Positions 51,535-64,000 of a stretch of DNA of 64,000 nt are shown piece after piece (positions within the stretch are counted from its first letter, which is position 1; every line of letters begins with the position of its first letter). The translations under genes were made by a program, and so were the position numbers. The notes under the pieces were generated by a model, which had not been told where the DNA came from, did no database searches, and saw only the letters and a list, made by a program, of their open reading frames with translations. This DNA comes from an uncultured Pelagibacteraceae bacterium (GTDB lineage: Bacteria; Pseudomonadota; Alphaproteobacteria; Pelagibacterales; Pelagibacteraceae), in contig CACBYV010000006.1 of the NCBI GenBank assembly GCA_902543575.1, forward strand, positions 1 to 64,000, read 5' to 3'.

Positions 51535-52608
51535 TTAGACTGAACTAAGATTATCTAAAATTTTTTTTGAACATTGTTCTGTATTACTAGAGCCTTGAAG
51601 ATCTTTTGTTCGACTGTCTCTATCTTTAAGAGTTAATTGAATTGATTTTACTATTCTATCAGAAGCTTCTTTTTCACCTAAGTAATCTAACATCATTGCA
51701 GCTGACCAAATTTGACCCACTGGATTAGCTACCCCTTGTCCCGCAATATCTGGTGCCGATCCATGAACGGGTTCAAATAATGATGGATATTTATTAGTTG
51801 GATTTATATTTCCAGACGGTGCAATTCCAATAGTTCCAGTACAAGCTGGTCCCAGATCAGATAGAATATCCCCAAAAAGGTTCGATGCGACTATCACATC
51901 AAAGCGTTCAGGACTTAACACAAATCTAGCAGCTAATATATCGATATGGTATTGATCAGTTTCAACATCAGGATAATTTTTTTTATTTTCATAAAATCTT
52001 TCATCCCAATAAGGCATTGTAATAGATATTCCATTTGATTTTGTAGCACTTGTTAGTTTTTTTCTTTTTCTTTTTTTAGCTAATTCAAATGCAAATTGTT
52101 GAACTCTATCTATTCCGTATTTTGACATTATTGTTTCTTGAATAACCACTTCTCTATCACTTCCCTGAAACATTCTTCCACCGACTGATGAGTATTCTCC
52201 TTCAGTATTTTCTCTAACAATTATCATGTCAATATCACCTGGCTTTTTATTAGCTAATGGTGCATTTACACCTTCAAAAAGTTTTACAGGTCTTAGGTTA
52301 ATAAATTGATCAAACTCTCTTCTGAATTTTAATAATGAACCCCAAAGAGTTATGTGATCTGGATATTTGTCTGGCATACCAACCGCACCAAAGAAAATTG
52401 CATCGTGTTTAGTTAATTTTTCTTTCCAGTCATCTGGCATCATTTTTCCATGTTTTTCATAATAATCACATGATGCAAAATCATAATCTTCTATCTTTAA
52501 TTTGAATTGATGTTGTTGAGAAATTTCTTTTAATATTTTTTGCGCTTCAGGTACAACTTCTTTTCCAATGCCGTCACCAGCAATAGAAGCTATTGAATAT
52601 TCTTTCAT
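51535..52608 (-). CDS. Tartrate/D-malate dehydrogenase-type beta-decarboxylating dehydrogenase
   Basis: This 357-aa protein belongs to the isopropylmalate/isocitrate dehydrogenase family. SIAGDGIGKEV at the start, YYEKHGKMMPDDW, GAVGMPDKYPDHITLWGSLLKFRR and SNLFGDILSDL are typical of the TtuC/DmlA subgroup acting on tartrate and D-malate. It uses NAD and a divalent metal. It starts on the base after the guaC stop. D-malate is a reasonable substrate, but that is inference. Confidence 0.87.
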   Translation of the reverse strand: MKEYSIASIAGDGIGKEVVPEAQKILKEISQQHQFKLKIEDYDFASCDYYEKHGKMMPDDWKEKLTKHDAIFFGAVGMPDKYPDHITLWGSLLKFRREFDQFINLRPVKLFEGVNAPLANKKPGDIDMIIVRENTEGEYSSVGGRMFQGSDREVVIQETIMSKYGIDRVQQFAFELAKKRKRKKLTSATKSNGISITMPYWDERFYENKKNYPDVETDQYHIDILAARFVLSPERFDVIVASNLFGDILSDLGPACTGTIGIAPSGNINPTNKYPSLFEPVHGSAPDIAGQGVANPVGQIWSAAMMLDYLGEKEASDRIVKSIQLTLKDRDSRTKDLQGSSNTEQCSKKILDNLSSV

Positions 52609-53643
52609 TTATTTAGTGAATGTATCGTTAAATTGCTTAGTAACTCTGACAAAAGTTGTGCACTTACTTAATTGTTTTAAAGAGGGTGCACCAACATATG
52701 TACAACTACTTCTTACACCACCTAAAATATTTAAAATGGTATCATTAATTTTACCACGGTACTTCACTCTGACTGTTCTTCCTTCGCTACTTCTGTAGTC
52801 TGATAGTCCGCCGTAATGTTTATTGTTAGCTGTTTCAGAACTCGATCCATAAAATTCGACATATTTAGAACCATTAGATTTTACTAATTTTCCTTTACCT
52901 TCATCATGACCTGCAAACATTCCTCCAAGCATAACAAAATCAGCTCCTCCACCAAATGCTTTAGCAACATCACCAGGACATGTACATCCGCCATCTGCAA
53001 TTATATGTGCACCTAATCCGTGAGCTGCATCAGCGCACTCTATCACTGCACTTAACTGTGGATATCCAACTCCAGTTTGTATTCGTGTCGTACAAACACT
53101 ACCTGGTCCAATTCCAACTTTAACAATATCTGCACCTGATAAAATTAATTCTTGAGTCATATCAGCAGTAACAACATTACCTGCTATGATTGTTTTTGTT
53201 GGATATTTATCCCTAACAGATTTTAAAAATTTACTAAAATGCTCTGAATAACCGTTTGCAACATCAATGCATATAAATTTAATGAAACTAAATTCTTTTA
53301 AAACTTTATCTAAATTTTGAAAATCTTCTTTTTTTGTTCCAATACTTAAAGCTACATTTGGATATATTGATTTAATTTTTTTAAATTGTTTAATTTTTTT
53401 TACATCATGTTGTTTTGTTAAACATGTAATCATTCCGTAATCAGATAATTTTTCGGCTACACCAAGTACGCCTACACCATCCATGTTAGCTGCCATTATA
53501 GGAATTCCAGACCATTCGTTTTTACTGTATTTAAAACGATAGGTTCTCTTTAAATTAACATCTTTTCTACTTTTAAGAGTGCTTCTTTTAGGTCTAAAAA
53601 GTACGTCCGAATAATCTAGTTTTAGCTCTTCTTCAATTCTCAC
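52609..53643 (-). CDS. guaC: GMP reductase
   Basis: This 344-aa enzyme converts GMP to IMP and ammonia with NADPH. An upstream ATG exists at 53661, but starting at GTG 53643 gives [10 protein letters not shown], matching the E. coli GuaC N-terminus almost exactly, so GTG is preferred. [35 protein letters not shown] and the catalytic Cys184 in GSVCTTR are clear. There are no CBS domains, which separates it from IMP dehydrogenase. It is first in a three-gene operon. Confidence 0.95.
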
Positions 53644-53765
53644 AAAAATGAAGGTATACATCCAATGAATGATAATTCAATTTAATAATTAAGCTTATTA
53701 ACGTTGTATTTGAACAATTTTAAAATTATTGATTGAATTATAAAAATATAAATTAAAATAAATAA

Positions 53766-54641
53766 ATGTTTGAAGGTTTTAAGAGTAGATACGTACAAGT
53801 TAAAAAAGGGAAAGTCTTTTGCAAAGTTAAAGGAGAGGGACCACCTTTATTATTACTCCATGGTTACCCTCAAACTCATTTAATGTGGCATAAAACAGCT
53901 CCAGAGTTATCTAAAAGTTTTACAGTGGTTGCAGCAGACCTAAGAGGTTATGGAGACAGTTTAGCTCCACCATCTGATAGTAAACATTATAATTATTCTA
54001 AAAGAGAAATGGCGAGTGACATGAAACAAACGATGGTAAAACTTGGATATCCTAAATTTTTTGTTGCAGGTCATGATAGAGGTGGAAGAGTTGCTCATAG
54101 ATTGGCAAGAGATCACAGAAAAAACGTGCTTGCTCTTAGCGTTTTAGATATTTGTCCAACTTTAGATATGTACGAACTAACAACTAGAGATTTTGCAAAA
54201 GCTTACTTCCATTGGTTTTTTTTAATTCAGCCAAAATGGTTACCTGAAAGAATGATAATGAGTGATCCAAGAAAATGGATGAAGTATTGCTTAGATAAAT
54301 GGTCTGGCAATCATAAATTTGGAAGAGTTGAAGAGGGTTACTTAAAGTGCTTTAAGCAACCAAAGAGAATTCATGGATCATGTGAGGATTATAGAGCATC
54401 TGCTACTATTGATCTTGATCACGACAGATTTGATCGAAAGAAAAAATTAAATATTCCTGTTCAAGTATTATGGGGAAAAAATGGTGTTATAGGTAAACAA
54501 TTTAAACCTATTAAAATTTGGCAAAAATATTCAAATAAAAAAGTTTTAGGAGTTGCTGTTAAATCTGGACATTTTATACCAGAGCAAAATCCCAAAGAAA
54601 CAATTAAACAATTAAAAAGTTTCTTTTTAAAAAATGCTTAA
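53766..54641 (+). CDS. Fluoroacetate/haloacetate dehalogenase-type alpha/beta hydrolase
   Basis: This 291-aa protein has the full active-site set of fluoroacetate dehalogenase: nucleophile Asp104 with Arg105 and Arg108 (GHDRGGR), Asp128, His149-Trp150 (halide pocket), Tyr209 and His269 (SGHFIPE). Positions fall within three residues of the enzyme from Burkholderia FA1. It would hydrolyse a haloacetate to glycolate and halide. The family equivalence is strong; the natural marine substrate (chloro-, bromo- or iodoacetate) is inference. It overlaps the TauD-type gene by 8 bp. Confidence 0.85.
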   Translation: MFEGFKSRYVQVKKGKVFCKVKGEGPPLLLLHGYPQTHLMWHKTAPELSKSFTVVAADLRGYGDSLAPPSDSKHYNYSKREMASDMKQTMVKLGYPKFFVAGHDRGGRVAHRLARDHRKNVLALSVLDICPTLDMYELTTRDFAKAYFHWFFLIQPKWLPERMIMSDPRKWMKYCLDKWSGNHKFGRVEEGYLKCFKQPKRIHGSCEDYRASATIDLDHDRFDRKKKLNIPVQVLWGKNGVIGKQFKPIKIWQKYSNKKVLGVAVKSGHFIPEQNPKETIKQLKSFFLKNA

Positions 54642-55422
54642 AATTATTCCTAATAAAAAAAATATTGGCGCAGAATTAGTCTGTGATTTAAATAAAATTA
54701 ATAACTCTACCCTAAAAAAAATTAAATCTGCCCTATCAAAGTATGGGATGATTTATTTTAGAAAACAAAAATTAAATTCTGATCATTACGTAAAATTTGC
54801 AAAAAAATTTGGAAAACTTGCAAATTATCCAAGACTTAAAGGATTGAATAAAAAATATCCTCAAATAACTGTTGTTCAAAGAAAATCTAGTGATAAAGGA
54901 CCTAGTTTTGGTGAGCAATTTCATACTGATTCCATTTATACAAAAAAGCCGCCTAGATTTACAATGTTGTTATCTAAATTAGTTCCAAAAAAAGGTCAGG
55001 CAAACACAGATTTTTGCTCTCAATATTTAGCTTATGAAAAATTACCAGCTAGTTTTAAAAGAAAGTTTAAAAACGAAAAATGTATATTTTCATCAGAAGG
55101 TCCTATTTCAGTAACAAGATTAGAAAGAGAGAAAGAAAAGGGTAAAAAAGCTAAAGAACTTATTTCAAAGCATAAATTAATAAGAAAAATAAATAGTAAA
55201 TACACTTTATATTGTAGTCCAGGTCACTTTATTGGTTTTAATAACAATAAAATTGATAAAAAATTAAAAACTTATTTATTTAAACACCAAGTAAAAAAAA
55301 GTTTTCAATATTCATTGGAGTGGGAAAAGAACCAATTAGCTATTTGGGATAATAGATCTATGCTTCATCAAGCAACGGCTTTTAAGGGAGACAGAATTAT
55401 GCATAGAATTACTGTCCAATAA
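54634..55422 (+). CDS. TauD/TfdA-family 2-oxoglutarate dioxygenase
   Basis: This 262-aa enzyme has the iron ligands His97-Asp99 (FHTDSIY) and His245 (SMLHQATAF), with Arg258 as the likely 2-oxoglutarate anchor. It resembles taurine/2,4-D dioxygenases. The substrate is unknown. It is translationally coupled to the dehalogenase gene and its stop shares a base with the AEC carrier start, so the three probably form one pathway. Confidence 0.87.
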   Translation: MLKIIPNKKNIGAELVCDLNKINNSTLKKIKSALSKYGMIYFRKQKLNSDHYVKFAKKFGKLANYPRLKGLNKKYPQITVVQRKSSDKGPSFGEQFHTDSIYTKKPPRFTMLLSKLVPKKGQANTDFCSQYLAYEKLPASFKRKFKNEKCIFSSEGPISVTRLEREKEKGKKAKELISKHKLIRKINSKYTLYCSPGHFIGFNNNKIDKKLKTYLFKHQVKKSFQYSLEWEKNQLAIWDNRSMLHQATAFKGDRIMHRITVQ

Positions 55423-56345
55423 TGTTTCAGGTCTTTCTAGGATTAACACCATTTATAGGTATCACTCTCATCGGTTATCTTTTAGGATATATTAAAATAT
55501 TTGATTTACAAAAGGCCAGAATATTTAATTTATTTTCATTTTATATCGCAGTTCCTGCTTTAATTATAAAATTAGTTTCACAAAGTGATATTGGGGAAAT
55601 AGATCTATCTCAAATTTCATCATATTTTTTAATGCAGTTAATAAGTGGAATATTTGCTTTTTTATTAACCAAAAATACTTTCAAAAGATCAATACAAGAG
55701 TCTATTATTTGGGCCTTAACTGTTGCTTTATCCAATCACGTAATATTAGTTTTACCTATTGCAGAAATATTTTTTGCAGGAAGTACCATAACGCAAATAT
55801 CAGGTATTATTTTAATGGATAGTGTAGTTTTATTATCTATAGTTAGTTTCTTTTTAGAACTTACTGTAAAAAAAAAAATTAAATTACTTCAGTTTTTAAA
55901 AAATTTAATATTAAATCCTATGATATTAGCAATATTAATTGGATTGATAATAAGAATTTCAAAAATCAATATAGACGATACCCCATTTGAGTATATACTT
56001 CAAAGACTAGCAGCATGTGTAATGCCAGTTGGTTTATTTGCAATCGGTATTATTCTTTCTTTTTACTCAAAAAAAGTTTTCAATAAATTAACAATTACTA
56101 TTTCAATATTAAAACTTATTATTTCACCACTGATTTTGCTGATTTTAGGTTACACATTTTTTAGCTTGTCAAATCCAATCAATTTTGCCGGAGCTTTGTT
56201 GGTTAGTGTTGGCCCTTGTGGAGCTACCTCAATTGTTATGTGTTCTGCATATAATGTAAGTCCAGAAAATATTATTAAGGCAATATTTATTTCAACATTT
56301 GCTTCAATATTTACCTTTTTATTTACTATAAATTTATTAAATTAA
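55422..56345 (+). CDS. AEC-family transporter (auxin efflux carrier/malonate-type)
   Basis: This 307-aa protein has about ten hydrophobic segments and the AEC pattern, with FYIAVPALIIKLVSQ near the N-terminus and SVGPCGATSIVMCSAYN near the C-terminus. Bacterial AEC members carry organic acids such as malate or malonate. Coupled to the dioxygenase and dehalogenase genes, it may move the haloacid or its product, but that is inference. Confidence 0.9.
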   Translation: MFQVFLGLTPFIGITLIGYLLGYIKIFDLQKARIFNLFSFYIAVPALIIKLVSQSDIGEIDLSQISSYFLMQLISGIFAFLLTKNTFKRSIQESIIWALTVALSNHVILVLPIAEIFFAGSTITQISGIILMDSVVLLSIVSFFLELTVKKKIKLLQFLKNLILNPMILAILIGLIIRISKINIDDTPFEYILQRLAACVMPVGLFAIGIILSFYSKKVFNKLTITISILKLIISPLILLILGYTFFSLSNPINFAGALLVSVGPCGATSIVMCSAYNVSPENIIKAIFISTFASIFTFLFTINLLN

Positions 56346-56349
56346 AATT

Positions 56350-56799
56350 ATGTTTAAAAAAATATTTAGCATTCTTTTCATTTTTCTTTTTTTATCATCG
56401 ATCTCGATAGCTAAAGATAAAATAGATGAAACTATTGATAAAACCACTGACTTTTTAAAATCAATATCTAAGAAAAGTTTGAATAAATCTCAAACCGCAG
56501 AATTTTTAAATAATTATGCAATAACACTTGAAGATGAAAGAAATCAAGGCGTTGTAACTTATATATTTGATGAAAAAAATTACAAAAGATACCAAGATGG
56601 AAACGTCATTTCAGAAGATGGATGGAGATTTACAAATTTAGGTAAATTAAGAGTTTTTTCAGGAGATATCAAATTAACTTGGAAATTTAAACTTGATAAG
56701 CAAAATGTAATAGTAATTAAGACTAAATTCCAACCACTTGGAAAAGAATATCCTTTTACCTATCAATTAAAAGATAAGTTCTTTGAACAAATAAATTAA
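56350..56799 (+). CDS. Hypothetical exported protein, 149 aa
   Basis: A signal peptide (MFKKIFSILFIFLFLSSISIA) precedes a lysine-rich mature domain of ~128 residues with alternating hydrophobic strands (VVTYIFDEKNYKRYQDG, LRVFSGDIKLTWKFKL). It is probably a periplasmic beta-rich protein. I recognise no family. It starts 4 bp after the AEC gene. Confidence 0.75.
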   Translation: MFKKIFSILFIFLFLSSISIAKDKIDETIDKTTDFLKSISKKSLNKSQTAEFLNNYAITLEDERNQGVVTYIFDEKNYKRYQDGNVISEDGWRFTNLGKLRVFSGDIKLTWKFKLDKQNVIVIKTKFQPLGKEYPFTYQLKDKFFEQIN

Positions 56800-56913
56800 A
56801 TGTCAAAAAGATATAGCGGAAAATCATTTAAAGACTCTAGTGTGATGAAAAAAGCTAAACTTTCTCTAAAGGAAAAAAGAAAAATTAAAAAAGATAAGAA
56901 AAAGAACAAGTGA
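56800..56913 (+). CDS. Small very basic protein, 37 aa
   Basis: An ATG on the base after the preceding stop opens a 37-codon frame. About half of its residues are Lys or Arg (KLSLKEKRKIKKDKKKNK), with no acidic cluster. It could be a nucleic-acid-binding peptide. The abutting start favours translation, but AT-rich DNA yields Lys-rich frames by chance. Confidence 0.45.
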   Translation: MSKRYSGKSFKDSSVMKKAKLSLKEKRKIKKDKKKNK

Positions 56914-56964
56914 AATCTTGTTTGCATCAAAAAATAAAAGTAGTATAAACCAACAATTATTTAA

Positions 56965-57041
56965 GGCGGGGTAGCTCAGTTGGTTAGAGCGCGGGACTCA
57001 TAAGCCCGAGGTCAGTGGTTCGATCCCACTTCCCGCTACCA
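56965..57041 (+). tRNA. tRNA-Met (CAT), elongator type
   Basis: A complete 77-nt cloverleaf can be drawn. The acceptor is GGCGGGG with TCCCGCT, including G1-U72 and G7-U66. The D arm is GCTC/GAGC, the anticodon loop CTCATAA (anticodon CAT), and the T arm AGTGG/CCACT; CCA is encoded at the end. The start GGCGG and G1-U72 resemble alphaproteobacterial elongator tRNA-Met. Pair 31-39 is an A-G mismatch. Its last base abuts the apt stop on the other strand. Confidence 0.95.
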
Positions 57042-57569
57042 TCAGTGACCAGGAAAATCTAATAAATTTTCAACTTTATATCCCTTTTTCAGTAAACTAT
57101 TAGTTCCACCTAAATCAAAAAGATTTATTACAAATATAAATCCAGCCACTTTACTTTTTGATATTTCAATTAATTTAGCTGCTGCTTCTGCAGTGCCACC
57201 AGTAGCAATTAAATCATCAATTATTAAAACTTTATCACCTTCATCGAATGAATCTTTGTGAACTTCTATTGTCGCAGTTCCATATTCAAGTTCAAAGTCT
57301 ACTGAATGAACATCAGCAGGTAATTTATTTTTCTTTCTCAACATTATGAATGGTTTATTAAGTACATAAGAAATAGCTGATGCAAAAACAAAGCCTCTAG
57401 ACTCCACAGCTCCAATTTTATTAAATTGGAATTTTTTTGATCTTTCAACAATTTGGTTAATACATTCTTTGAATGCTTTTTCATTTTTAATAAGTGTTGT
57501 TATATCTCTGAAAAGAATTCCCTTTTTAGGATAGTCTTGAATTGATCTAATATGTTCTTTTAAATCCAT
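57042..57569 (-). CDS. apt: Adenine phosphoribosyltransferase
   Basis: The frame is open from 57725, but that extension lies over the divergent mtnP gene. The ATG at 57569 gives 175 aa starting MDLKEHIRSIQDYPKKG, as expected for Apt. The PRPP loop VLIIDDLIATGGT is intact. It recycles adenine to AMP, including adenine released from methylthioadenosine by MtnP, its neighbour 28 bp away on the other strand. Confidence 0.96.
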   Translation of the reverse strand: MDLKEHIRSIQDYPKKGILFRDITTLIKNEKAFKECINQIVERSKKFQFNKIGAVESRGFVFASAISYVLNKPFIMLRKKNKLPADVHSVDFELEYGTATIEVHKDSFDEGDKVLIIDDLIATGGTAEAAAKLIEISKSKVAGFIFVINLFDLGGTNSLLKKGYKVENLLDFPGH

Positions 57570-57597
57570 TAATCTTAAATATAATCTAAATAAATAT

Positions 57598-58470
57598 ATG
57601 ACAAATAATAAATTAGCAATTATTGGTGGTAGTGGATTATATGATGTTGAAGAGTTTAAAGACAGAGAAACTCTTGATTTAAATACCCCATGGGGAAAAC
57701 CCTCAGATTTAATATTAAAGGCCAAATATAATAATAAAGAAATTTATTTTCTACCAAGACATGGAAAAGGTCATTTTATCTCACCATCAAAAATAAATTT
57801 TAGAGCAAATATTGGTGCACTAAAGCAACTTGGTATTACAGATATTGTATCAGTTTCTGCTGTAGGATCTTTAAAGGAAGAATTACATCCAGGGAAATTT
57901 GTTATTGTTGATCAATTTATAGATAGAACTTTTGCAAGAAATAAAACTTTTTTTGATGATGAAATTATTGCACATGTATCAATGGCTCATCCAACTTCAA
58001 ATGGATTAATGAATGCTTGTGAGGACGCGATTAAAAAGGAAACCATACCTTATCAAAAAGGCGGAACTTATGTTGTAATGGAAGGTCCTCAATTTTCAAC
58101 ATTGGCAGAATCAAATTTATATAGATCATGGAAAGCGGATGTTATTGGAATGACAAATATGCCAGAAGCTAAATTAGCAAGGGAAGCTGAAATTAGATAT
58201 GCTTCAGTTTCAATGGTAACAGACTATGATTGTTGGCATCCAGATCATGAAAATGTTGATGTTCAAAAAGTTATAAAAGTACTTTTAGATAATGCAGCAA
58301 AAGCAAAAAATATGATTAAAAATTTGATAGAGAACTTTGAAAATTACATTGATCCTAATGATCCAACTAATAATTGTTTAGATGTAGCAATAATTACTGC
58401 CCCAGAAAAAAGAACTCAAAAAACTATAGATAAATTAAACATAATTGCTGGAAGAGTACTAAAAAAATGA
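57598..58470 (+). CDS. mtnP: S-methyl-5'-thioadenosine phosphorylase
   Basis: This 290-aa protein has the MTAP pattern: IIGGSGLYDVEEF near the N-terminus, RHGKGHFISPSKINFRANI, VVMEGPQFSTLAES and VIGMTNMPEAKLAREAEI. It cleaves methylthioadenosine to adenine and 5-methylthioribose-1-phosphate. It heads the operon mtnP-fkbM-mtnA-aldolase-speDE and overlaps the FkbM gene by 4 bp (ATGA). Confidence 0.96.
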   Translation: MTNNKLAIIGGSGLYDVEEFKDRETLDLNTPWGKPSDLILKAKYNNKEIYFLPRHGKGHFISPSKINFRANIGALKQLGITDIVSVSAVGSLKEELHPGKFVIVDQFIDRTFARNKTFFDDEIIAHVSMAHPTSNGLMNACEDAIKKETIPYQKGGTYVVMEGPQFSTLAESNLYRSWKADVIGMTNMPEAKLAREAEIRYASVSMVTDYDCWHPDHENVDVQKVIKVLLDNAAKAKNMIKNLIENFENYIDPNDPTNNCLDVAIITAPEKRTQKTIDKLNIIAGRVLKK

Positions 58471-59327
58471 ATTATTTAGATTTATTTGATTTGGAAGAAA
58501 AAATTCAAATCATGGACGTTGGTGCCGCTGCTATATCTGAAATACCAGTTTATAAAAAATTAATGGATATTGGAATAGGTAAGTTAAATGCATTTGAGGG
58601 TGACCAAAGACATTCGACAAAGTTAAAAGAAGAATATGGAGATAATATCATTTTATTTACAGATTTCTTATTTGATGGAACTATTCAAAATTTATATTTA
58701 GCTAATCCTAATACTGGAATGACTTCTTTATTAAAACCCAAAGAAAATGCAAATAATTTTTTTAATGGTTTTGATAGATTTAGTAAAATTGAAAAAGTAG
58801 ATAAAGTTAATACAAAAAAATTAAATGATATCGATGATCTTCCTTTAATAGATTTTGTGAAAATGGATATTCAAGGCTCTGAGCTTACTGTATTAAAAAA
58901 TGGTTTAGATAAAATTAAAGATTGTTTAGCTATCCAGATCGAAGTTTCATTTATATGCTTATATGAGAATCAACCTAGCTTTGGTGAAGTTGATATTTGG
59001 ATGAGATCTAAAGGCTTTGTACCCCATTGTTTTCTAGACATTAAGAGGTGGTCTATTAAACCAACTATCTTCAATAATAATTTTAGAACACCAGGAAATC
59101 AATTATTAGAATCGGACATTGTTTATATAAAAGACCCTCTTCAACTTAACCAATTAAGTGATGAACAAATAAAAAAATTTATATTAATTTCCCATTATTG
59201 TTTTATGAGCATAGACTTAACTGCATTTCTAATTATTGAGTTAGAAAAAAGAAAGACATTATCAAAAGACTCTTTTAAAAACTATATTGATAACATAAAA
59301 AAATTTATTAATGAAAGTCCAAAATAA
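58467..59327 (+). CDS. FkbM-family methyltransferase
   Basis: This 286-aa protein has the FkbM-type core IMDVGAAAISEIPVYK, then IDFVKMDIQGSELTVLKNG and AIQIEVSFICLYENQPSF. Such enzymes methylate sugars or other hydroxyl groups with SAM. Its presence between mtnP and mtnA is unexplained, since no methylation is needed in the salvage pathway. Coupled overlap upstream (4 bp) and a 6-bp gap downstream show it is cotranscribed. Confidence 0.83.
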   Translation: MNYLDLFDLEEKIQIMDVGAAAISEIPVYKKLMDIGIGKLNAFEGDQRHSTKLKEEYGDNIILFTDFLFDGTIQNLYLANPNTGMTSLLKPKENANNFFNGFDRFSKIEKVDKVNTKKLNDIDDLPLIDFVKMDIQGSELTVLKNGLDKIKDCLAIQIEVSFICLYENQPSFGEVDIWMRSKGFVPHCFLDIKRWSIKPTIFNNNFRTPGNQLLESDIVYIKDPLQLNQLSDEQIKKFILISHYCFMSIDLTAFLIIELEKRKTLSKDSFKNYIDNIKKFINESPK

Positions 59328-59333
59328 AAAATA

Positions 59334-60413
59334 ATGAAAATTAATGGCGTTGAATATAAAACAATTTGGTTTGATGAAGAAAAACAAGCTGTAAAAATAA
59401 TAGATCAAACAAAGCTTCCACATAAATTTATAATAAAAGAATTAAGTTCAGTTAAAGACGCTATAAATGCTATAAAAACAATGGAAGTGAGAGGTGCTCC
59501 ATTAATCGGAGGAACAGCTGCATTTGGATTAGTTCTAGCTATAAAAGAAAATAACAGTTTAGATTTTATAAAAAAAAGTTCAGAAGAATTAGTTGCATCT
59601 AGACCAACAGCAATAAATCTTCAGTGGGCAGTTCATAGAATGAATAACAAATTGTCATTTGTTGAACCTGGAGATTTATTTAATGTTGCACTCAAAGAAG
59701 CTAAAGAAATTTGTAAAGAGGATGAGGGGTTTTGTGAAAGTATTGGTAAAAATGGATTAAATATTATTGAAGGCATATATAATAAAAAGAAAGACACCGT
59801 CAATATTCTCACACATTGTAATGCGGGTTGGTTAGCTACAATAGATTGGGGAACAGCAACTTCTCCTATTTATCATGCACATAAAAAAGGAATACCAATA
59901 CATGTTTGGGTAGATGAAACTAGACCAAGAAATCAAGGAGCAAACCTTACATCATATGAGCTTAATGAAGAAGAAATTCCAAATACTATTATAGCAGATA
60001 ATACAGGTGGAATATTAATGCAAAGAGGACAGGTTGATATGTGTATTGTTGGAACAGATAGAACATTATCTAACGGAGATGTGTGTAATAAAATTGGAAC
60101 ATATTTAAAAGCTCTTGCAGCTCATGATAATAATGTGCCTTTTTATGTTGCTTTACCAAGTTCAACGATAGATTGGAATTTAAAAAACTCTAAAGATATT
60201 CCAATAGAAGAAAGAGATCCAAAAGAACTCTCACATGTGGATGGAATTAACAAAGATAATAAAGTTGATAAAGTTTTAATATATCCTGAAAAAAGCAAAT
60301 CATTAAATTTAGCCTTTGATGTAACGCCAGCTAAGTATGTTACATCATTAATAACAGAAAAAGGAATATGCGAAGCTTCTACTGAAGGTTTAAATGGTCT
60401 CTTCAAAAACTAA
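59334..60413 (+). CDS. mtnA: S-methyl-5-thioribose-1-phosphate isomerase
   Basis: This 359-aa protein has the MtnA motifs VRGAPLIGGTAAFG, THCNAGWLAT with catalytic Cys162, and VGTDRTLSNGDV with Asp242, matching Cys160/Asp240 of the Bacillus enzyme. It turns methylthioribose-1-phosphate into methylthioribulose-1-phosphate. It overlaps the aldolase gene by 20 bp. Confidence 0.96.
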   Translation: MKINGVEYKTIWFDEEKQAVKIIDQTKLPHKFIIKELSSVKDAINAIKTMEVRGAPLIGGTAAFGLVLAIKENNSLDFIKKSSEELVASRPTAINLQWAVHRMNNKLSFVEPGDLFNVALKEAKEICKEDEGFCESIGKNGLNIIEGIYNKKKDTVNILTHCNAGWLATIDWGTATSPIYHAHKKGIPIHVWVDETRPRNQGANLTSYELNEEEIPNTIIADNTGGILMQRGQVDMCIVGTDRTLSNGDVCNKIGTYLKALAAHDNNVPFYVALPSSTIDWNLKNSKDIPIEERDPKELSHVDGINKDNKVDKVLIYPEKSKSLNLAFDVTPAKYVTSLITEKGICEASTEGLNGLFKN

Positions 60414-61038
60414 CAAAAAGAAAAATGATGTTATTAAGTTTTCCAAAATGCTTAATGACAAAAAATTATCAGCTTTAAGATCTGGCAATATATCAGTCAG
60501 ACATAACAATGGTTTTTTTATTACCCCTTCAGGAAAAAATTACTCATCACTAAAAGTAAAAGATATAGTCTTTGTAAGTCTAGATGGAAAATATGAAAAA
60601 AAAAACAAACCTTCGTCAGAATGGAGATTTCATCAAGATATTTATATCAAAAAGAAAGATGCTCAAGCAATAGTTCATTCACATTCGACTAATGCAACAG
60701 CTCTATCTGTTCACAAAAAACCTATTCCAGCCTTTCATTACATGGTTGCACTCGCGGGAGGTAATGATATTAAATGTGCGAAATACGCAACTTATGGAAC
60801 AAGAGAGCTTTCAAAAAACATTATAAAAGCTTTGAATAATAGAAAAGCCTGCTTGATTGCAAATCACGGTCAGATTGCATTTGATAAAAATTTACCTGAT
60901 GCTTTTGAATTGGCACAAGAAGTTGAAAATTTGAGTTTACAGTATATAACCGCTCTTAAGCTTGGAAAGCCAAAAATTCTTTCTATAAATGAAATGAATA
61001 AAGTTTTAAAAAAAGCTAAAAATTATAAAAGAGATTAA
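60394..61038 (+). CDS. Class II aldolase, FucA/Ald2-like (methylthioribulose-1-phosphate aldolase candidate)
   Basis: This 214-aa protein aligns with fuculose-phosphate aldolase: SGNISVR, PSSEWRFH with Glu76, VHSHSTN with His95 and His97, AFHYMVA with Tyr116, ATYGTRELS, and ANHGQIA with His158. These correspond to FucA Glu73, His92, His94, Tyr113 and His155. Right after mtnA, it is best read as Ald2 of the DHAP shunt, splitting methylthioribulose-1-phosphate to DHAP and methylthioacetaldehyde. The alternative is dehydratase MtnB of the same superfamily, but the residues favour an aldolase. Confidence 0.83.
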   Translation: MVSSKTNKKKNDVIKFSKMLNDKKLSALRSGNISVRHNNGFFITPSGKNYSSLKVKDIVFVSLDGKYEKKNKPSSEWRFHQDIYIKKKDAQAIVHSHSTNATALSVHKKPIPAFHYMVALAGGNDIKCAKYATYGTRELSKNIIKALNNRKACLIANHGQIAFDKNLPDAFELAQEVENLSLQYITALKLGKPKILSINEMNKVLKKAKNYKRD

Positions 61039-61040
61039 AT

Positions 61041-62081
61041 ATGACAAAGGTTGGGGAACACATAACTCTAGATATAATTGGAACTAAAAAAGAATATGAT
61101 CCATCTTTTTATGAGAAGTTAGTTTATAAAATTGCTAAAGCAGCAAAAGTAACAGTTTTAAAAATTTCTAAATATAAATTTGAGCCACAAGGATTTACAT
61201 TGGTTGCTTTGCTCGCTGAAAGCCACATTAGTTTTCATACTTTCCCAGAAAAAGAAATTGTAAGCTTTGATTTTTTTACATGTGGAAAAGTATCACCAAA
61301 AGTTTCTCTAGATATAATAAAAGACGAGATGGAACATACAAATATAATAATTAAAGAATTTAATAGAGATACTATTGATTTTTATCATGACAATTATAGT
61401 TCTCCAGGTTTAAAAAAATCATATGTTGTTAATAGAGTTTTAGAAAATTTTAAATCTAAAGTAGGTCAATATATTGAAATACTTGATTTAGAACAGTTTG
61501 GAAAAGCTTTATTTATTGATAATGAAATACAAGTTGCTGAAAGTGATGAACATTTATATAGCTCAACCTTTGTAAATTCAGGTCTTAATTTGAATTCAAA
61601 TAAAGAGAAAGCTGCAATTATTGGCGGAGGTGACGGTGGTGTTGCAAGAGAATGTATTTCACAAAATTTTGGATTTATAGATTGGTATGAATTAGATCCT
61701 GAAGTTGTTGATGTATGTGATAAACATTTAAGCAAAATAGGAGAAAAGGCGACAGAAAAAAATTCAGTTAAATGTGTTTGGGGTGATGCATTTGAGAGCA
61801 TTAAATCAGTCAAAGATAATACCTATGATCAAATTTTTGTTGATCTTAACGATGATCAATTTTGCATAGATTTAGCTTCAAAAAATATGTCATCTTTAGA
61901 AAGAATTTTAAAACCTAAAGGTGTAATTACTGCTCAAGTTGGAAGCCAAGATAAAAAACCAAAACAAGTTGAAAATTGGTTAAATGTTTTTAACAAAAAT
62001 TTTGGAAATACAAAACTTTCAAGAGTTTACATACCAAGTTTCGATTGTTCTTGGAATTTTTCCTCGTCAATAAATCATTAA
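61041..62081 (+). CDS. Fused S-adenosylmethionine decarboxylase and aminopropyltransferase (SpeD-SpeE)
   Basis: This 346-aa protein joins two enzymes. Residues 1-~115 are bacterial SpeD, with LLAESHISFHTFPE (Ser61 is the pyruvoyl-forming residue, cleaved after Glu60), His66 and Cys81. Residues ~130-346 are a short spermidine-synthase domain with YIEILD, GGGDGGVARE and FVDLNDDQF. The loop after the catalytic Asp differs from the usual DxxDPxGPA, so the amine acceptor is uncertain. The product methylthioadenosine would feed mtnP, mtnA and the aldolase, encoded just upstream. Confidence 0.93.
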   Translation: MTKVGEHITLDIIGTKKEYDPSFYEKLVYKIAKAAKVTVLKISKYKFEPQGFTLVALLAESHISFHTFPEKEIVSFDFFTCGKVSPKVSLDIIKDEMEHTNIIIKEFNRDTIDFYHDNYSSPGLKKSYVVNRVLENFKSKVGQYIEILDLEQFGKALFIDNEIQVAESDEHLYSSTFVNSGLNLNSNKEKAAIIGGGDGGVARECISQNFGFIDWYELDPEVVDVCDKHLSKIGEKATEKNSVKCVWGDAFESIKSVKDNTYDQIFVDLNDDQFCIDLASKNMSSLERILKPKGVITAQVGSQDKKPKQVENWLNVFNKNFGNTKLSRVYIPSFDCSWNFSSSINH

Positions 62082-62139
62082 TTTTACTTTTTAAAACAAT
62101 AATTTTATGAAATAATCTTCAAAATTTTGGAGGAAAAAA

Positions 62140-62967
62140 ATGAAAAAATTAAAAGTATTAGGACTTGGTATTTTAATATCATCATTTCTAACAATTTCTT
62201 CAATTGCAGATCAAATTAAAATAGGAACTGAAGGTGCATATCCGCCTTGGAATTCTAAAGATTCAGCTGGAAATTTGATTGGCTTTGAAGTCGAATTAGC
62301 AAATGAATTATGCAAAATTATGAATCATGATTGCACAATTGTAGAGCAAGACTGGGATGGAATGATTCCAGCTTTAGTCTCAAGAAAATTTGATGCCATC
62401 ATGGCTGGAATGTCAATAACAGGTGAGAGAATGAAAACAATAAACTTTTCTCAAGGTTATGCTGATGAGGTTGCATCATTAGCTGTTATGAAAGGATCGA
62501 AAAACGAAGGCCTTAAAACAATGTCAGCTATAAATCTATCTGACGTAAGTGCTGATGAACAAGCAACACTAGATGTTTTGACCAAAGCATTTAAAGGTAA
62601 AACTATTGGTGTACAAACAGCAACAATTCACCAGAACTTCTTAGAGTCTGGTTTAATGGGTAATGTAAAAATTAGAACTTACAAAACTCAAGACGAAGTA
62701 AACTTAGATTTATCTGCTGGTAGAATAGATGCAGCACTAGCTGCAGCTGTTGCTTTTACAGATTATGCAGAGAAATCTGGTAAAGGAGTTGTATTAACTG
62801 GACCAACATTTGCAGGTGGAGATTTTGGTAATGGTGTTGGTGTTGGTATTAGAAAAGGTGACTCTAAACTTCTAAATGATTTTAATGCAGCAATTGATAA
62901 AGCTAGAGATGATGGCATTATTAGTAAGCTTGCTATAAAACATTTTGGTTTTGACGCTTCTATGTAA
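62140..62967 (+). CDS. Polar amino-acid ABC transporter substrate-binding protein
   Basis: This 275-aa periplasmic protein has a signal peptide (MKKLKVLGLGILISSFLTISSIA) and the family-3 binding-protein pattern: KIGTEGAYPPWN, LIGFEVELANELC, DWDGMIPALVSRKFDAIMAGMSIT. It resembles HisJ/ArgT/NocT proteins binding arginine, ornithine, lysine or opines. A GGAGG lies 6 bp before the ATG. The permease follows after a 39-bp gap with a hairpin. Confidence 0.93.
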   Translation: MKKLKVLGLGILISSFLTISSIADQIKIGTEGAYPPWNSKDSAGNLIGFEVELANELCKIMNHDCTIVEQDWDGMIPALVSRKFDAIMAGMSITGERMKTINFSQGYADEVASLAVMKGSKNEGLKTMSAINLSDVSADEQATLDVLTKAFKGKTIGVQTATIHQNFLESGLMGNVKIRTYKTQDEVNLDLSAGRIDAALAAAVAFTDYAEKSGKGVVLTGPTFAGGDFGNGVGVGIRKGDSKLLNDFNAAIDKARDDGIISKLAIKHFGFDASM

Positions 62968-62980
62968 TAGATTATTTATG

Positions 62981-63000
62981 GGTGGCTATAACTAGCCACC
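62981..63000 (+). terminator. Hairpin between binding protein and permease
   Basis: A perfect 7-bp stem GGTGGCT/AGCCACC with a 6-base loop lies between the binding-protein and permease genes. No T-run follows, so it more likely protects the 3' end of a processed binding-protein mRNA than fully terminates transcription. Confidence 0.65.
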
Positions 63001-63006
63001 TATATT

Positions 63007-63699
63007 ATGGAACTTCTATATTTTGGTGATAAAGGTTGGGGAGACGAGTTATTCTTTGCAACATTAATGACAATTGCAGTTTCCATAACTGCAATGATAA
63101 TAGGCTTTATATTTGCTGCTTTATTTACTCCACTAAAATTATCTAATAATAAATTTCTTAACTCTATTGGTAATGCATATACCACTGTCATCAGAGGTGT
63201 ACCAGAGCTTCTTGTAATTTATTTATTTTTCTTCGGTGGAAGTGGAGCAATTATGTTTGTTGCTTCTATATTTGGTTATAATGAATATATTGAAATTAAT
63301 GCTTTTTTAACTGGTTCATTTTCAATAGGTATAATATCGGGGGCATATTCAACTGAAGTATTTAGAGGAGCCCTACAATCAATCGATAAGGGTCAGTTCG
63401 AGGCTGCAAAAGTTTTAGGTTTTAATAAATATATTTACTTCTTTAAAATTATTTTGCCTCAAATGCTAAGATTAGCAATTCCAAACTTAAGCAATGTTTG
63501 GCAAATTACATTAAAAGATACTTCTCTTATATCTGTAACGGGTTTAGTTGAAATAATGAGACAATCCTATATTGCAGCTGGTTCAACTAGAGATCCATTA
63601 TTTTTTTACTCATTTGCAGCAGTTCTATACTTAATGCTTACATTTTTAAGTATGCAATTATTAAATAGATTAGAAACAAAATATAGCAAAGGTTATTAA
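63007..63699 (+). CDS. Polar amino-acid ABC transporter permease (HisQ/ArtQ type)
   Basis: This 230-aa membrane protein has about five hydrophobic segments and the permease signature TVIRGVPELLVIYLFFFGG and GQFEAAKVLGFNKYIYFFKIILPQ (EAA loop). It forms one half of the importer channel. Its stop overlaps the next permease start by one base. Confidence 0.94.
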   Translation: MELLYFGDKGWGDELFFATLMTIAVSITAMIIGFIFAALFTPLKLSNNKFLNSIGNAYTTVIRGVPELLVIYLFFFGGSGAIMFVASIFGYNEYIEINAFLTGSFSIGIISGAYSTEVFRGALQSIDKGQFEAAKVLGFNKYIYFFKIILPQMLRLAIPNLSNVWQITLKDTSLISVTGLVEIMRQSYIAAGSTRDPLFFYSFAAVLYLMLTFLSMQLLNRLETKYSKGY

Positions 63700-64000
63700 T
63701 GGATATTGAATTAATGATAAATAGTTTTCCTAAGTTATTAAACGCAACTTTGATTACTCTTAAACTATTATCTGTATCTCTAATTCTTGGTCTTTTTATT
63801 GGATTAGGTTTTGCAATCTTGAGAATGAATAATAATAAGTTGATTAATAAATTTGCTTACGGGTATTCATATATTTTTAGAGGAACACCTTTATTGGTTC
63901 AAATCTTCATAATATATTTTGGATTAGGTCAAATTGAATATTTAAGAACAACCTTTTTATGGGTAGTTTTAAAAGAACCATACTGGTGTGCGATAATAGC
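63699..64000 (+). CDS. Polar amino-acid ABC transporter permease (HisM/ArtM type), 3' end outside window
   Basis: An ATG at 63699 overlaps the preceding stop and the frame stays open to the window end (100 codons). It has MINSFPKLLNATLITLKLL and YIFRGTPLLVQIFIIYFGLG, the usual N-terminal half of the second permease. The rest, and probably an ATPase gene, lie beyond the window. Confidence 0.9.
   Translation, partial: MDIELMINSFPKLLNATLITLKLLSVSLILGLFIGLGFAILRMNNNKLINKFAYGYSYIFRGTPLLVQIFIIYFGLGQIEYLRTTFLWVVLKEPYWCAII

Follow-up and report, generated by a model that had tools for sequence, protein, structure and literature searches.

The locus

The subject of this analysis is a group of genes at positions 57042-62081 of a 64,000-nucleotide stretch of DNA (the window; positions 1 to 64,000 of contig CACBYV010000006.1, assembly GCA_902543575.1) from an uncultured Pelagibacteraceae bacterium of the SAR11 group. 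The plus-strand genes of this group very probably form an operon for the disposal of methylthioadenosine (MTA) that is coupled to polyamine synthesis and operates through a dihydroxyacetone phosphate (DHAP) shunt. In close relatives, the aldolase gene of this operon is replaced precisely by a gene for an aldolase/dehydrogenase fusion protein. The contig region belongs to a 1.19-Mb genome that is 93.6 % complete. Its assignment to SAR11 is right, since the best named matches of the SpeD-SpeE protein encoded in the window are uncultured Pelagibacteraceae records that are up to 99 % identical. The following features were found:

57042-57569, minus strand: apt, adenine phosphoribosyltransferase (NCBIfam NF002634, 214 bits, cut-off 170)
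57598-58470, plus strand: mtnP, methylthioadenosine phosphorylase (NCBIfam NF006492, 439 bits, cut-off 437)
58467-59327, plus strand: FkbM-like methyltransferase gene, 861 bp (Pfam PF05050, 53.5 bits, cut-off 22.7)
59334-60413, plus strand: mtnA, methylthioribose-1-phosphate isomerase (NCBIfam TIGR00512, 411.5 bits, cut-off 279)
60394-61038, plus strand: gene of a FucA-like class II aldolase, 214 aa (Pfam PF00596, 166.3 bits, cut-off 22.2)
60394-61039: slot in which fusion-bearing relatives carry, on the other strand, an aldolase/short-chain dehydrogenase (SDR) gene of about 2.0 kb instead (blastn)
61041-62081, plus strand: speD-speE fusion, 346 aa, S-adenosylmethionine (AdoMet) decarboxylase plus aminopropyltransferase (TIGR03330, 92.9 bits, cut-off 75.65)
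from 62140, 3' of speD-speE: gene of a Lys/Arg/Orn-type ATP-binding cassette (ABC) binding protein (231.9 bits, cut-off 256.35)
56965-57041, plus strand: tRNA-Met (CAT), adjoining the 3' end of apt (ARAGORN; Rfam RF00005)

The products fit curated families and the gene order recurs among relatives, which sets the locus beyond chance. Both halves of the SpeD-SpeE fusion exceed the cut-offs of their Pfam families (PF02675 and PF01564), while the SpeE models PRK00811 and TIGR00417 score 127 and 105 bits, both under their cut-offs. The plus-strand genes from mtnP to speD-speE form a tight run, with overlaps of 4 nt (mtnP/fkbM) and 20 nt (mtnA/aldolase) and gaps of 2 and 6 nt, as would be expected in an operon. 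The apt gene, by contrast, is encoded on the other strand and transcribed away from mtnP, which places it outside the operon, on another transcript; the divergent apt-mtnP pair recurs at the majority of the longer loci from the family. All genes of the operon proposed in the initial annotation (apt, mtnP, mtnA, aldolase, speD-speE) are thus present, but apt does not belong to the run and the FkbM-like gene between mtnP and mtnA had been missed. The statement that the enzymes producing and consuming MTA are encoded side by side was confirmed by their families, coordinates and gene order. An Rfam search of positions 52000-64000 for a riboswitch, at gathering thresholds, returned tRNA only.

The aldolase and its linkage to mtn genes

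The aldolase of the window is the single PF00596 protein in its genome. It is 44.8 % identical to FucA of E. coli, which also provides its best solved-structure matches as judged by sequence, and 37.1 % identical to Ald2 of E. coli S88. Glu73, His92, His94, His155, Tyr113 and Tyr209, which we take to be the functional positions of FucA (E. coli K-12 FucA served as reference for alignment and numbering), show no variation across 25 rows from SAR11 and 26 from other Alphaproteobacteria, and Ald2 of E. coli S88 has them as well. The earlier remark that all FucA catalytic residues are retained is therefore correct as to their presence. These residues alone do not separate an aldolase from the dehydratase MtnB, because the two MtnB sequences that were aligned also have Glu73 and the three His residues. 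They differ at Tyr113, where they carry Phe or Leu.

In a tree of 55 rows, the SAR11 aldolases fell inside a group of 31 mtn-linked alphaproteobacterial rows (support 98/96). MtnB, of which two of three loci were included (L139 was left out), was placed far outside on long branches. The Ald2 included in this tree is that of E. coli S88.

Linkage to mtn genes was seen well beyond SAR11. Among 289 alphaproteobacterial genomes, 90 carried an aldolase match at E <= 1e-20, and 24 of the 26 top-ranking loci from other families have mtnA or mtnP beside the aldolase gene on the same strand, each within 100 nt. Within the family, represented by 118 Pelagibacteraceae genomes, mtnA was found in 86 of the 90 genomes positive for an aldolase of either type and was absent from 26 of the 28 negative ones. 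The speD-speE gene adjoins the aldolase gene in all 29 other family loci that were fetched by aldolase, and the gene order, for whose conservation a check had been suggested, recurs in relatives. In gene content, the locus would match the DHAP shunt described from R. rubrum and R. palustris. That the entire module may be dispensable is suggested by 26 of the 118 family genomes, some of them nearly complete, which lack mtnA and both aldolase types (e.g., G026 and G078).

Exchange of the aldolase for a fusion protein

The slot before speD-speE is occupied, in the SAR11 loci compared, by one of two genes. In the family genomes, the FucA-like aldolase was matched in 60, of which four were dropped to leave 56: three were other class II aldolases with 22-32 % identity (G062, G087, and G101) and one was a 51-residue stretch with a stop (G048). 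An aldolase/short-chain dehydrogenase fusion of 677 aa was present in 34. At a threshold of E <= 0.001, 88 genomes were positive for mtnA, 83 of them over the cut-off. Of these 88, 54 had the aldolase only, 32 had the fusion only, none had both, and two had neither; the latter two, G092 and G100, are 63 and 64 % complete. The same mutual exclusion was observed in the close relatives of the window, the best 80 of 563 fetched by SpeD-SpeE and all titled Pelagibacteraceae: 37 carry the aldolase, 43 the fusion, none both, and none neither. All 32 genomes that have both mtnA and the fusion carry the two on a single contig, on opposite strands and 40 to 2603 nt apart, and the fusion gene stands between mtnA and speD-speE in all four loci that were read (L080, L081, L083, and L089).

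Alignment of the window with the fusion-bearing loci L089, L144, and L145 by blastn revealed an exact gene-for-gene replacement. DNA identity is 94-96 % immediately flanking the slot; the match breaks off at 60394, the start codon of the aldolase gene, and begins again at 61040, a single base ahead of speD. The speD half of the window is on average 93.4 % identical to that of 25 fusion-linked relatives and 85.2 % to that of 24 aldolase-linked ones, while the speE half shows 93.8 and 95.2 %, respectively. As the speD half is nearer to the fusion-linked relatives and the speE half leans to the aldolase-linked ones, the window appears to be recombinant at this point. In a tree of mtnA with 39 SAR11 rows (L091 was too short to be included), the aldolase type switches at least five times (5-6 in bootstraps), and the well-supported branches force two switches.

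The fusion scored 887 and 908 bits against NF006192 (bifunctional aldolase/short-chain dehydrogenase; cut-off 639) and 457 and 447 bits against TIGR02632 (RhaD_aldol-ADH), under the cut-off of 567.75. It is a two-domain aldolase/SDR protein of the bifunctional family and of the RhaEW type. The Glu/His metal-site pattern is present in 49 of 49 rows, and the Ser-Tyr-Lys pattern of the SDR half in 19 of 19; a glycine pattern for nucleotide binding was found in 17 of 19. RhaEW converts L-rhamnulose-1-phosphate to DHAP and lactaldehyde and oxidizes the latter with NAD+ (PMC3870299). Because the fusion resembles RhaEW, a coupled oxidation of the aldehyde is predicted, and we infer that the protein performs the cleavage and then oxidizes the aldehyde formed.

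Matches to the fusion were obtained in 64 of the 289 alphaproteobacterial genomes; removal of 11 with only 30-34 % identity left 53, and the fusion (at least 45 % identity) co-occurs with the FucA-like aldolase in three of these. In 19 of the 30 best loci of other families, the fusion gene lies beside mtnA or mtnP on the same strand, 15 times within 100 nt. Of plasmid records, 135 contained a match and four were opened. On three annotated plasmids, of Shinella, Mariluticola, and Agrobacterium, the fusion gene shares an island with mtnK, mtnA, and genes for a regulator of the sugar type and a sugar ABC transporter, and on an unannotated plasmid of Tistrella mobilis it follows mtnP-mtnA. A separate case is a plasmid of Sinorhizobium meliloti (H53; CP090105.1, 306912-308135), where the aldolase half alone was matched (query residues 3-422). 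That gene is annotated as a class II aldolase, and similar partial matches occur among the other S. meliloti plasmids listed.

Proposed pathway and fate of the sulfur

The DHAP shunt is the best reading of the locus and would lead from MTA to DHAP and methylthioacetaldehyde. We infer the catalytic activities of the enzymes in the window, as well as the fate of the methylthio group, as follows. SpeD-SpeE would form spermidine (and probably also spermine/thermospermine) with the release of one MTA per aminopropyl transfer. MtnP would split MTA into adenine, which Apt could rescue, and methylthioribose-1-phosphate, which MtnA would isomerize. The FucA-like aldolase would then cleave methylthioribulose-1-phosphate to DHAP, entering central carbon metabolism, and methylthioacetaldehyde. 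In the 34 family genomes with the fusion in place of the aldolase, cleavage would be followed by oxidation of the aldehyde. It is plausible that 5'-deoxyadenosine from radical-AdoMet enzymes is a second substrate, which the same three enzymes would probably convert to DHAP and acetaldehyde.

SAR11 bacteria need reduced sulfur. As each aminopropyl transfer yields one MTA, what MTA is finally turned into determines whether the cell retains this sulfur or gives it off, and as which compound. In E. coli, methylthioethanol is the main end product of the DHAP shunt (PMC10986504). In R. palustris, methanethiol is made in air from the Ald2 product by unknown enzymes (PMC5893883). Methanethiol, if formed in SAR11, could be reused because MetY (O-acetylhomoserine sulfhydrylase) is encoded: a gene over the cut-off is present in the own genome (G000:C8:62018-63271) and in 94 of the 118 family genomes. 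In view of MetY and of the methanethiol formation in R. palustris, the earlier conclusion that methionine is not regenerated has not been established.

We tentatively propose that the slot represents a maintained exchange between two outcomes, a possibility rated at somewhat less than even. Cells with the aldolase would release methylthioacetaldehyde, to be turned into methylthioethanol and perhaps methanethiol, whereas those with the fusion would oxidize it immediately to methylthioacetate with a gain of NADH. In that case, the fusion would be an unrecognized second enzyme of the DHAP shunt that is widespread in Alphaproteobacteria, and SAR11 cells living side by side would release different organosulfur products into seawater.

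Alternative explanations

Several observations weigh against these proposals. The aldolase stays below the cut-off of every NCBIfam model shown, including those for FucA (213 bits, cut-off 264; 197.2 bits, cut-off 400.25) and that for MtnB (TIGR03328; 66.5 bits, cut-off 137.05), so that its substrate is not fixed by sequence alone. Phe206 of FucA is retained in only 3 of the 25 SAR11 rows. Ald2 of E. coli S88 pairs with E. coli FucA in the tree, not with the alphaproteobacterial aldolases, and is therefore no close anchor for the SAR11 clade; the Ald2 function may, as the sequences suggest, have arisen more than once. The two E. coli proteins (L134, 20370-21011, and L133, 4042-4689) are 58.2 % identical.

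With respect to the fusion, 11 of its 30 loci in other families are devoid of an mtn gene, also when wider stretches were checked. L-Rhamnulose-1-phosphate and methylthioribulose-1-phosphate differ in configuration at C4, and the stereochemistry of RhaD-type enzymes differs from that needed for the mtn substrate.

Furthermore, among the 80 close relatives, mtnA is absent from the fetched stretch in 14 of the 43 fusion loci and 6 of the 37 aldolase loci. Three of these 20 cases (L185, L193, and L209) are explained by the contig breaking off no more than 0.3 kb from the aldolase gene; for the remaining 17, upstream stretches of 4.1 to 7.4 kb contained no mtnA. In the four of these loci that were read, which belong to a related lineage, another catabolic cluster is located beside the slot: L216 (5093-7915) and L221 (5093-7912) carry the fusion, and L194 (6533-7993) and L220 (4244-5704) carry the aldolase. 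As identified by eye, the cluster consists of a beta-keto-acid-cleavage-like gene, genes similar to those of FAD monooxygenases and, in stretches that extend far enough, genes resembling those of tripartite ATP-independent periplasmic (TRAP) transporters. The shunt genes are thus not always together. At these loci as well, the two aldolase types replace each other in the slot preceding speD-speE, since L194 and L220 have the FucA-like aldolase where L216 and L221 have the fusion.

The alternative that survives best, although it is unlikely, is that the fusion is an unrelated catabolic gene in the slot and no functional substitute for the aldolase. Its orientation opposite to mtnA in all SAR11 genomes with both genes would fit such a role, as would L216 and L221, where the beta-keto-acid-cleavage-like gene follows on the strand of the fusion and no mtnA is present in the locus; the loci of other families that are free of mtn genes and the mismatch at C4 point in the same direction. 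It is disfavoured by the strict exclusion between the two types, with no genome or locus having both against 54 and 32 in the family and 37 and 43 among the close relatives, and by the presence of the FucA-like aldolase beside the same catabolic cluster in L194 and L220. Moreover, the same-strand linkage with mtnA or mtnP in other families, the plasmid islands with mtnK-mtnA, and the mtnP-mtnA-fusion order in T. mobilis tie the fusion to the mtn genes.

That the main duty of the locus is the disposal of 5'-deoxyadenosine from radical-AdoMet enzymes, with MTA being secondary, is rather improbable. DrdA and the DHAP shunts of R. rubrum and E. coli are reported to treat products of 5-deoxyribose or 5'-deoxyadenosine as well, but speD-speE, the source of MTA, is the neighbour of the aldolase in all 29 other family loci fetched by aldolase.

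That the protein serves sugar catabolism, as FucA or as a different 1-phosphoketose aldolase, and is next to mtnA by coincidence is considered very unlikely. Such an enzyme would agree with the higher identity to E. coli FucA than to Ald2, with the solved-structure matches, and with those relatives in which the aldolase lies beside speD-speE with no local mtnA. However, models for L-fucose isomerase (FucI) and L-rhamnose isomerase (RhaA) detected nothing at cut-off in the 118 family genomes, and mtnA tracks the aldolase type in SAR11, with the same linkage in other families. Use of fucose or rhamnose was rejected for the sampled family on the basis of the missing isomerases, and the protein was not accepted as the L-fuculose-1-phosphate aldolase of the fucose pathway, given the absence of FucI and the FucA scores below cut-off.

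The notion that the aldolase is an MtnB-like dehydratase opening a complete methionine salvage pathway is scarcely credible: the two proteins share a superfamily, Glu73, the three His residues, and a weak TIGR03328 score, but that score is less than half the cut-off, Tyr113 is present in all 25 SAR11 rows, the tree sets MtnB apart, and neither MtnB nor MtnD (ARD; three weak matches) was found over the curated cut-off in any of the 118 family genomes, whereas MtnC and MtnK were not searched. Complete methionine salvage was rejected on the absence of the MtnB and MtnD steps, and the earlier claim that a FucA/Ald2-type aldolase stands in for the usual MtnBCDEK set holds as far as these two steps are concerned.

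For the DHAP shunt itself, recovery of carbon as DHAP, as proposed in the initial annotation, is supported by the linkage to mtn genes, the lack of MtnB, MtnD, FucI, and RhaA, the FucA-type active site, and the replacement of one aldolase by another in the same slot, all of which argue for it at the level of sequence. Overall, that annotation is partly supported: its observation was largely right, its reading of the chemistry mostly so, and the loss of sulfur is unproved.

Variable genes within the locus

The FkbM-like gene is best regarded as variable cargo at the mtnP-mtnA junction, and a role in the pathway is unlikely. No fkbM match (E <= 1e-15 over 35 % of the gene length) was obtained in the 80 close relatives, and mtnP and mtnA are at least 183 nt apart in 23 of the 59 relatives with both genes. 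As a pathway enzyme it was rejected on these grounds. Other junctions hold hydrolase-like genes (L061, L062, and L089), an oxygenase-like gene (L079), or a gene for another protein (L080), named mostly by eye and, for L089, by Pfam. In G102 (L094, 7192-9536), a DegT-type aminotransferase gene and a gene of about 400 aa with no Pfam match are situated between mtnA and the aldolase gene.

Significance and comparison with known systems

Few bacteria in the sea are as common as those of SAR11 (PMC8437039). The gene-for-gene swap in close relatives provides natural matched pairs, and the fusion is a candidate for the enzyme that handles the aldehyde released by aldolase cleavage. The operon also bears on the proposal that the SpeE of SAR11 runs backwards (PMC8437039), because the reverse reaction would need MTA, which the products of the neighbouring genes should remove. 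Among the open-licence matches listed, none described the DHAP shunt for SAR11, and none placed the fusion at an mtn locus; in PMC8437039, "methylthioribose" and "mtnA" occur once each outside the main body, so that a mention in its supplement is possible.

The SpeD-SpeE protein has the same fused architecture as those of Pelagibacter, and nothing notable differs, the window copy being known from its sequence. The fused proteins of HTCC1062 and HTCC7211 combine AdoMet decarboxylase with spermidine/spermine/thermospermine synthase (PMC11107197). RhaEW is of the same two-domain kind as the fusion that replaces the SAR11 aldolase. Its authors reported RhaEW always in rha loci (PMC3870299), whereas the SAR11 fusion occupies an mtn slot in a family in which RhaA was not detected, and it stays under the TIGR02632 cut-off.

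The 5-deoxyribose salvage system DrdK-DrdI-DrdA of B. thuringiensis resembles the SAR11 locus in its succession of a kinase or phosphorylase, an isomerase, and a FucA-type aldolase. The three Drd enzymes act on methylthioribose, too, and the stereochemistry of DrdA was inferred to be 3R,4R, FucA-like (PMC6079011). Unlike the SAR11 locus, this system of Firmicutes is kinase-based, and the accessible text on it mentions no polyamine gene. The DHAP shunt of E. coli (Pfs-MtnK-MtnA-Ald2; the S88 locus was read) has MtnA and a FucA-like aldolase in common with SAR11, which has MtnP where E. coli uses Pfs and MtnK; the Ald2 of E. coli groups with the FucA of that species.

The MtnP-MtnA-Ald2 shunt of R. 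rubrum and R. palustris employs the same three enzyme families, and its steps run in air in R. palustris (PMC5893883). This likeness is drawn at the level of enzyme families. In conclusion, the shunt of SAR11 is of a known kind; the SAR11 locus differs in lying beside a speD-speE fusion, and what is new is that its aldolase is exchanged with an aldolase/dehydrogenase fusion enzyme.

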